From Elusimicrobiaceae bacterium (lineage in GTDB: Bacteria > Elusimicrobiota > Elusimicrobia > Elusimicrobiales > Elusimicrobiaceae), in the NCBI GenBank assembly GCA_016282685.1, contig JAEELM010000022.1:1-33917 (forward strand): a stretch of DNA of 33,917 nt, in the 5' to 3' direction. Within the stretch, counting starts at the first letter, position 1. Each line of letters opens with the position of its first letter. The notes under the pieces were generated by a model. That model was not told the origin of the DNA. It was given only the letters and a program-made list of their open reading frames with translations, and made no database searches. This document shows, in pieces, positions 11,399-25,708 of this stretch. The position numbers and the translations under genes were made by a program.

Positions 11399-11858
11399 AT
11401 TTGTATCAAGGCTGACAATATTGGGGATTTATCTATTATCATCCCCGATATTGTGGGCATTGGAAGTACAGATAGATCCGTTCTTTAAAATTGACAAAAT
11501 TTCCTATAAGAAGGGACGCCTTGTATTGCCTGTGACTCGTCGGAAGTATCACAATATAAAGGTGTTAGATGAACATACGTTTACATGGTTGCAAACGTGT
11601 GCTTCGGAAACAAAGTGCGTTCAGGAAAAGAAAAAATTGCCCTTCCGGGTAGAAATGATTCGCCCTGTTGTTACTCGGCAAAATATGTGGATTGCAGAAG
11701 TTTCTTTTGCAGAACAGTGGTTGATTGTATTTTTGCTGTTTAAGAATCCCAATGGATATGTATTGAAGGAACCAGATCATTTTAAGTTTTTAGATGTTAC
11801 ATTGGCGACAAAGATACGGCAAGAGCTTGAACAAATGGTACAAGGAACAACACTATGA
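11391..11858 (+). CDS. Small secreted protein of unknown function
   Basis: A 155-residue protein not recognised as a named family. Residues 1-23 (MHKFVSRLTILGIYLLSSPI and following) form a signal peptide or anchor. The mature part has no further membrane segment, is rich in Lys and aromatic residues, and carries two Cys (CASETKC) that could form a disulfide. ATG 11391 overlaps the efp stop; an in-frame GTG at 11385 is less likely. It overlaps the DUF192 gene by 4 bp (ATGA), so it is embedded in the operon and likely co-translated. Confidence 0.7.
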   Translation: MHKFVSRLTILGIYLLSSPILWALEVQIDPFFKIDKISYKKGRLVLPVTRRKYHNIKVLDEHTFTWLQTCASETKCVQEKKKLPFRVEMIRPVVTRQNMWIAEVSFAEQWLIVFLLFKNPNGYVLKEPDHFKFLDVTLATKIRQELEQMVQGTTL

Positions 11859-12190
11859 AATGTGTTTTAGAAAAAACGGGGCAGCCTTTGGCTTGCGAAG
11901 TAGAAATGGCTAATACTTATTTTACGCGTTTAAAAGGGCTGATGTTCCGTAAGGTTTTTGACAAGAATAAAGTATTGGTGTTGGATCCTTGTCCGCAAAT
12001 TCACACGTGTTTTATGCGCTTTTTATTAGATGCTGTCTTTTGTGCGCCAGACGGAACGGTTCTTTATGTGATAGAAAATATGAAACCCTGGCGATTTAGT
12101 AAATTTATATCAGGGGCTCGTTATACCCTGGAATTTTCGGGGGGAACCCTACAAGGGCGTGTACAGGTTGGAGACAAGATTTTATTTTAA
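11855..12190 (+). CDS. DUF192 (UPF0127) family protein, cytoplasmic form
   Basis: A 111-residue small beta-rich protein. The segments RLKGLMFRK, HTCFMRFLLDAVFCAPDGTVLYV and ARYTLEFSGG follow the DUF192 pattern (GLM..., F-M---L-LD--F------V--). The family has no established reaction. Unlike the second DUF192 protein in this window (minus strand near 16.5 kb) it has no signal peptide. It overlaps the gene before it by 4 bp and precedes the outer-membrane-type gene by 18 bp, so it belongs to the efp operon. Confidence 0.8.
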   Translation: MKCVLEKTGQPLACEVEMANTYFTRLKGLMFRKVFDKNKVLVLDPCPQIHTCFMRFLLDAVFCAPDGTVLYVIENMKPWRFSKFISGARYTLEFSGGTLQGRVQVGDKILF

Positions 12191-16254: not shown

Positions 16255-16683
16255 TTAAAACCGTATCTCCGCTTGAGGAACTACCTGATGCTTTTCGGCC
16301 GTTTTGGAAGACAGTTCCAACACATATTTCCCGTAACCGGTAGCACGGGCTACTTCTGCATCCGGTGTGTAGGTGTAAGAATGGGGGACTTCTGCAGCGA
16401 TATTATTTACTTTTTTATCTGCTCCAATGAAGACCATGTCCAAATCGATTAGTGTGTTTTTCATCCAAAATAACTGCGGTTGCTCTTCATCAAACACAAA
16501 AAGCATTCCTTGGTTTTCCGGCAGATTCGTTACAAACATAAGGCCTTTTTCTTGCTTGTTGGGTGTGTCAGCTATGAGGGCATTTACCACAAATCCATCC
16601 GGCAATGTTACCGAAACGGTCCGGTATGGATTGCAGGCTGCTAGTCCCATAAGAACAAGACTTATAAAAAGGAATTTTCTCAT
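16255..16683 (-). CDS. DUF192 lipoprotein
   Basis: A 142-residue exported protein with a lipobox (LAAC, lipidated Cys17) followed by a DUF192 domain: KGLMFVTNLPENQGMLFVF, FWMKNTLIDLDMVFIGADKKV and the Tyr/Gly-rich end are classic. The family is small and uncharacterised. It is the second DUF192 protein in this window; the other lacks a signal. Co-transcribed with the secreted M20 peptidase. A TAAAAT hexamer lies 6 nt before the start without Shine-Dalgarno. Divergent from the pilin gene. Confidence 0.88.
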   Translation of the reverse strand: MRKFLFISLVLMGLAACNPYRTVSVTLPDGFVVNALIADTPNKQEKGLMFVTNLPENQGMLFVFDEEQPQLFWMKNTLIDLDMVFIGADKKVNNIAAEVPHSYTYTPDAEVARATGYGKYVLELSSKTAEKHQVVPQAEIRF

Positions 16684-16716: not shown

Positions 16717-16739
16717 TTGTGGCGGAAATGGGCCCACAA
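16717..16739. promoter_or_regulatory. Inverted repeat between divergent pilin and DUF192 promoters
   Basis: TTGTGG (16717-16722) and CCACAA (16734-16739) form a perfect 6-bp inverted repeat around 11 bp. It ends 5 bp before the pilin -35, and its left arm lies where the divergent -35 would be, so it may be an operator for one or both genes. Confidence 0.35.
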
Positions 16740-16744
16740 AATAC

Positions 16745-16774
16745 TTGACTATTTTAAATTTTTGTTGGTAAAAT
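16745..16774 (+). promoter_or_regulatory. Promoter of the pilin gene
   Basis: TTGACT (16745-16750), 18-bp spacer, TAAAAT (16769-16774). Predicted +1 is about 16781, exactly where the first stem of the leader RNA begins. This is the best two-box sigma70 promoter in the window. Confidence 0.65.
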
Positions 16775-16780
16775 AAAGTT

Positions 16781-16855
16781 GCGGTCTTTATAGTAAAAAA
16801 ATTTCCGCAATCCTAAAGACCGCCCTAGCAATAGGAAAAGGTGCGCGGAAAGGAG
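16781..16855 (+). ncRNA. Structured pilin 5' leader, candidate cis-regulatory pseudoknot
   Basis: Three nested elements are visible. Stem 1 is a perfect 10 bp, GCGGTCTTTA (16781-16790) with TAAAGACCGC (16814-16823), around a 23-nt loop. Directly next to it is CCTA-GCAA-TAGG (16824-16835), a 4-bp hairpin with a GNRA tetraloop. The loop of stem 1 holds TTTCCGC (16802-16808), which matches GCGGAAA (16845-16851), fused to the Shine-Dalgarno AAAGGAG. Stem 1 plus this long-range pairing make an H-type pseudoknot with an inserted hairpin, able to cover the edge of the ribosome site. No named riboswitch consensus was recognised. The function (stabilising a very abundant mRNA, or a ligand- or protein-controlled switch) is inference. 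Confidence 0.5.
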
Positions 16856-16862
16856 AAAAGTT

Positions 16863-17476: not shown

Positions 17477-17502
17477 AACCCACCCTTCGGGGTGGGTTTT
17501 TT
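17477..17502 (+). terminator. Terminator of the pilin gene (UUCG tetraloop)
   Basis: Perfect 9-bp stem AACCCACCC / GGGTGGGTT closed by a TTCG tetraloop and followed by a T run. Confidence 0.95.
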
Positions 17503-25637: not shown

Positions 25638-25708
25638 GCGGGCGTGGTTCAATGGTAGAATGGAAGCTTCCCAAGCTTTAGACGAGGGTTCGATTCCCTT
25701 CGCCCGCT
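25638..25708 (+). tRNA. tRNA-Gly (anticodon CCC)
   Basis: A full cloverleaf folds by hand: acceptor GCGGGCG / CGCCCGC, D stem GTTC / GAAT, anticodon stem GAAGC / GCTTT with loop TTCCCAA (CCC at 25670-25672), a 4-nt variable loop, and T arm GAGGG-TTCGATT-CCCTT. Discriminator is T25708. The genome does not encode the terminal CCA; a T run follows directly and may act as its end signal. Confidence 0.95.

Follow-up and report, generated by a model that had tools for sequence, protein, structure and literature searches.

A predicted pseudoknot at the ribosome-binding site of a type IV pilin-like mRNA in Elusimicrobiaceae, and the complementarity of its loop to a second pilin message in related genomes

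A pilin leader with an anti-Shine-Dalgarno helix

We read the 5' leader of a type IV pilin-like gene from an Elusimicrobiaceae bacterium as a real HLout-type pseudoknot that would occlude part of the Shine-Dalgarno (SD) sequence of the pilin mRNA. The leader occupies positions 16781 to 16862 of the window, by which we mean the whole stretch of 33,917 nucleotides that was analyzed (contig JAEELM010000022.1). Three elements can form in it: a first stem, S1, of 10 bp, a GNRA hairpin of 4 bp inserted after it, and a helix, S2, of 7 bp that joins the S1 loop to the SD region (Table 1). The initial annotation, made from the letters alone, had placed all three correctly, as a re-reading of the sequence confirmed. 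Its main proposal, a pseudoknot with an inserted hairpin reaching the SD, is supported by compensatory changes and by coupled changes of loop and tail in relatives. With its conserved loop-SD helix and compensatory change, the leader falls within the general class of translational leaders with an anti-SD pseudoknot. Half of the SD GAAAGGAG (4 of 8 bases) lies inside S2 and GGAG itself is left unpaired, which makes the degree of repression uncertain.

Table 1. Features of the pilin locus, in coordinates of the window
Feature	Position	Strand	Basis or remark
Sigma-70-like promoter: -35 TTGACT, 18 nt, -10 TAAAAT, TG before the -10	16745..16774	+	Promoter scan; -10-to-S1 spacing in relatives
S1 5' arm GCGGTCTTTA	16781..16790	+	First base is the predicted +1
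L1, A-rich loop segment	16791..16801	+	A-rich in every member
S2 5' arm TTTCCGC, anti-SD loop segment	16802..16808	+	CTCCTACAG at the homologous position in relatives bearing a class B pilin (see text)
S1 3' arm TAAAGACCGC	16814..16823	+	Pairs with 16781-16790
Inserted hairpin CCTA-GCAA-TAGG	16824..16835	+	4-bp CCTC-AAA-GAGG in G017
L3 linker AAAAGGTGC, from hairpin to S2 3' arm	16836..16844	+	A-rich in relatives
S2 3' arm GCGGAAA	16845..16851	+	Overlaps the SD by 4 nt
Shine-Dalgarno GAAAGGAG	16848..16855	+	Pairs with the assumed 16S 3' end CUCCUUUC
Type IV pilin-like gene, 196 aa	16863..17453	+	Domain search (N_methyl and ComP_DUS matches)
Terminator-like hairpin AACCCACCC-TTCG-GGGTGGGTT with T tail, 3' of the pilin gene	17477..17502	+	Read from sequence; absent from the terminator scan listing

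The transcript probably starts with S1. The spacing of the promoter agrees with a +1 at about 16781, the first base of S1, as had been predicted before, and the gap between the -10 box and S1 is kept at 6-7 nt in the window and in the six relatives checked. From this position and this conserved spacing, S1 would be the 5' end of the mRNA. Transcription attenuation was considered and rejected, the terminator scan having found no terminator on the + strand of the leader.

The decisive support for the leader structure is comparative, not energetic. A perfect 10-bp stem arose in 0.1% of shuffled leaders (frequency 0.001), and an S2 as strong as that of the window in 0.4% of loop/tail shuffles (0.28% in a narrower test). 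The plain minimum-energy fold of the window leader was not unusual (z = 0.18), because S2 is invisible to the program and the long loop carries an energy penalty. We dropped minimum-energy folding as evidence, since it was not significant.

The surroundings of the gene have features of their own. The heptamer of the S2 3' arm, GCGGAAA, occurs once more within an inverted repeat, TTGTGG-CGGAAATGGG-CCCACAA (16717-16742), that lies just upstream of the pilin promoter and outside the predicted transcript. A DUF192 gene (16255-16683, - strand) is divergent from the pilin gene and was covered by the domain search; an ORF at 11855-12190 (+) looks like it, a likeness judged by eye. The window genome (1.42 Mb) has 38 matches to the N_methyl pilin motif, far above the need of one pilus system, and the pseudoknot leader precedes only one of its retrieved pilin genes.

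Conservation of the pseudoknot among relatives

The window genome, G000, is that of a gut Elusimicrobium relative with a completeness of 91%, and our sample of its genus has 66 genomes. We gathered 182 pilin leaders, most of them from the family, and the named homologs belong to Elusimicrobium or Elusimicrobiaceae MAGs. The gene metK lies at 1-2.5 kb in most members. The closest leaders are near metK, as in the window (G017, G035, G057, G013, G051, G059, G010, G008, G063, G047, G007, and G061), hence we regard these loci as orthologous.

S1, the inserted hairpin, and S2 occur together in six leaders of the genus, which share little sequence beyond a TCC/GGA core and A-rich linkers. Their S2 arms are UUUCCGC/GCGGAAA in G000 (shuffle P = 0.0028), UUCCUGC/GCGGGAA in G017 (P = 0.028), UUCCUGCGC/GCGUGGGAA in G035 (P = 0.0016), UCCUACA/UGUAGGA in G032 (P = 0.0004), UCCUAC/GUAGGA in G065 (P = 0.065), and UCCUACAGU/ACUGUAGGA in G057 (P = 0.0002), P values that are not independent because the six members share the TCC/GGA core by descent. 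Each of the six 3' arms of S2 stops 0-2 nt short of GGAG. Loops also prefer their own tails: the summed energy of the native combinations ranked 4th among 720 permutations, and 1st among 120 when G065 was left out. These tests used extracted loops and tails, since the MAFFT alignment of whole leaders put the 3' half in the wrong place. The initial annotation had named covariation in homologs as the check on its proposal, and S2 passes a test of this kind in what is a small sample, with only six clean members. Two further leaders, G054 and G040, can pair only with a bulge, and their longest continuous helix is 5 bp (P = 0.11 and 0.34).

The other two elements change in sequence while keeping their place. 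In the sister genome G017, a U-A pair of the window S1 is replaced by C-G and pairing is kept; in other relatives the S1 arms are very different and still paired. At the site of the inserted hairpin, G032, G035, G065, and G057 have other hairpins. The covariation energy given by RNAalifold for the S1 region is small (-0.2), because the register of S1 shifts between groups.

Two search strategies were abandoned. A covariance model (R1) built from the window and G017 only recovered its two source leaders from 90 genomes and nothing else except three weak matches that look like coding sequence. The pattern TCCTAC-N-GTAGGAARG found 3 true leaders, the remainder being mostly an unrelated terminator-like repeat. 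This repeat, TCCTACCACCATTTAA(A)CCCC-hairpin-GGGGTTTT..GTAGGAAAG, is present in many genomes of the genus (L148, L150, L151, L153, L156/L166, L157, L160, L161, and L163), with two copies 200 bp apart in G048, and resembles a repeated terminator with a flanking inverted repeat.

Complementarity between the loop and a second pilin message

In 20 related genomes, the loop of the leader (hereafter the A loop) has the canonical sequence (A)CTCCTACAGT; in G040 it is TTCCTACAGT. A second group of pilin leaders, class B, opens with a short hairpin and carries a near-invariant AAACTGTAGGAGGTTTT directly or a few bases before ATG (37 leaders), although the rest of the class B leader is variable. The A loop and the B site AAACTGTAGGAGGTTTT-ATG are perfect reverse complements over 10-17 nt in the 20 genomes, against 7 nt at most for altered loops. 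The predicted A:B duplex has an energy of -19.5 to -26.4 kcal/mol, compared with -7.4 to -14.7 for the same loops in cis. This predicted antisense relation to the ribosome-binding site (RBS) of a second pilin lay outside the view of the initial annotation.

The strict B motif was counted about 75 times over 90 genomes and its reversed control 4 times; in the family the motif is thus about 20 times as frequent as this control. It is confined to the genus of the window: beyond it, matches fall to the control rate, and we rejected a wider taxonomic range. B is present in 20/20 genomes with the canonical loop and in 1/11 of those with an altered or lost loop, G014 being the sole genome with an altered A loop and B (Fisher test, P = 2.5e-7, not corrected for phylogeny). 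On a metK tree there are about 13 changes in the presence of B and four independent pairs, all in the same direction, which are too few (P = 0.125). About 15 genomes have B and no detected canonical A loop, so that B does not depend on A; the pattern fits A either regulating B or sensing it.

Within class B leaders (L036, L022, L008, and 34 others), AAAAC-TGTAGGAG-GTTTT is shared just before ATG; it could form a 5-bp hairpin whose loop would hold the SD. As this SD is near invariant even where the A loop is lacking, something else may bind it. A strong 5' stem is combined with a non-canonical loop in the pilin leaders L191 (G035), L024 (G004), L226 (G039), and L261 (G014). The one of G035 retains a 9-bp S2; in the one of G004 a hairpin sits within the loop of S1, and an S2 is not clearly present.

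The picture in the window genome is different. The B motif was not found there, the retrieved pilin leaders have no complement to the window loop, and none of the TTGCGGAAA sites examined is a convincing RBS. One candidate partner, a TTGCGGAAA site before GAGG and a possible start (G000:C47:62439), was judged to be chance. Hence, the cis helix is the only pairing supported in this genome, where the loop has drifted together with its cis partner. Given a completeness of 91%, a partner may have escaped detection.

A probable translational brake and its possible origin

We think it probable that the leader is a cis-acting element of translational control, a brake on the pilin mRNA. We infer repression by S2, a change of state, and a cause for that change, as follows. 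In the nascent mRNA the strong hairpin S1 would form before anything else. Once the SD region has emerged, the loop of S1 could pair with GCGGAAA and close the HLout-type pseudoknot, with the inserted hairpin as a spacer. S2 would then occupy half of the SD and abut the remainder, reducing ribosome entry until it opens by melting, by competition with the ribosome, or through a partner RNA. In the relatives, the opener (or the target) could plausibly be the class B pilin mRNA, whose RBS complements the A loop over a greater length and more strongly. In the lineage of the window, where both the loop and its cis partner changed, the element would work in cis.

A reading that extends this brake, and does not exclude it, is that the A loop was originally antisense in trans to the SD of the B-type pilin, a partner that the lineage of the window lost. 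The A mRNA would repress B, or the B mRNA would pull the loop off the SD of A, or both. For the relatives we regard this dual role as a serious possibility, if short of an even chance. The perfect complementarity, the near-invariant B site, the excess over the reversed control, and a duplex stronger in trans than in cis all argue for it, as does the restriction of the canonical loop to genomes with B, with which the four independent pairs agree; moreover, homology on the same strand cannot pass on reverse complementarity. Against it stand the genomes with B and no detected canonical loop, where some other constraint must act on the motif, the few pairs of the phylogeny-corrected test, the exception of G014, and the absence of B or any other partner in the window genome. 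The window brake is perhaps the descendant of such a dual pilin-to-pilin switch. More tentatively, the genus could possess an RNA device that chooses between paralogous pilins. An A loop on its own SD would mean off, and one on the SD of the second pilin would silence the latter, free A, or do both, giving mutual control of the two messages. Where the second pilin was lost, as in G000, loop and cis arm would drift together as a self-switch.

We weighed three other explanations. The element could be an RNA thermometer, or simply a stabilizer of the mRNA with a 5' terminal stem, with S2 incidental. S1 lies at +1 in all members, B-type leaders also start with a hairpin, as is typical of 5' end protection, and G007, G061, and G048 have S1 stems without an anti-SD loop. 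We still hold this unlikely, because S2 is retained by coupled changes and ends 0-2 nt from GGAG, and stability alone needs neither. A ligand-sensing riboswitch of a new class with a preQ1-II-like topology seems quite improbable to us. The HLout pseudoknot, the inserted hairpin, and the occluded SD are those of known translational riboswitches (PMC11625349), and c-di-GMP riboswitches are reported to act on type IV pilin genes elsewhere (PMC6200980). Yet no Rfam family matches, no pocket-like bases are conserved outside the TCC/GGA core, S1 and the inserted hairpin vary freely, and the element is limited to the pilins of one genus. The proposal of the initial annotation that the leader regulates pilin translation in cis stands as the best reading; its ligand variant has gained no positive evidence. 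Finally, short matches are frequent when pyrimidine loops face purine-rich SDs, and G040 and G054 are at chance level. Chance complementarity as the whole explanation is nevertheless most improbable, given the preference of loops for their own tails and the P values of 0.003 or less obtained with different arms in each of G000, G035, G032, and G057.

If our reading is true, this would be a new class of leader, from a phylum whose RNA biology has hardly been described and from genomes that carry pilin-like genes by the dozen. If the pairing in trans is real, paralogous pilins would be switched directly from mRNA to mRNA, a system for which lineages that lost the partner are natural controls.

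Comparison with known systems

The initial annotation had noted that the leader fits no known class and pointed to Rfam. No Rfam family, including those of c-di-GMP riboswitches, matches the leader or its relatives (the window leader was searched at E values up to 10), and in the whole window Rfam recognizes only a tRNA, at 25638-25708. A literature search for RNA-based regulation of pilins in Elusimicrobiota found nothing. To our knowledge, the structured leaders that regulate pilins are mainly c-di-GMP riboswitches. Those of Clostridioides difficile resemble our case in that a type IV pilin gene is controlled by its 5' leader, as is predicted here, but have a different fold.

The likeness to the preQ1-II riboswitch that had been proposed holds for topology and fails for Rfam, gene context, and phylum. 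In that riboswitch, too, an inserted hairpin precedes the 3' arm. It is an HLout pseudoknot: the loop of its 5' hairpin pairs with bases beyond that hairpin, and the resulting helix contains or borders the SD (PMC11625349). The window leader shares this topology and the involvement of the SD. It differs in having no Rfam match and no conserved pocket, and in an S1 that sits at +1 and measures 8-14 bp. Furthermore, preQ1-II controls the queuosine transport gene queT in Bacillota, whereas our leader precedes a pilin gene in Elusimicrobiota.

Two systems bear on the possible action in trans. In Neisseria meningitidis, an antisense RNA at the pilE locus affects pilin expression or variation (PMC4402397); this RNA is reported to be encoded in the pilin locus itself and is not known to involve a leader pseudoknot or a second pilin mRNA as target. 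The SreA leader of Listeria acts in cis on the gene it precedes and in trans on the translation start of another mRNA, prfA (PMC8079631). Our case shares with it the idea of one 5' leader acting both in cis and in trans, the step in trans being a proposal here. Conserved complementarity to a second mRNA of the same genome was found in the 20 related genomes and not in G000. SreA works in the form of a short, terminated RNA, and its binding site is about 80 nt upstream of the SD (PMC8079631), whereas the complement of the A loop spans the SD and the spacer of the mRNA of a paralogous gene.
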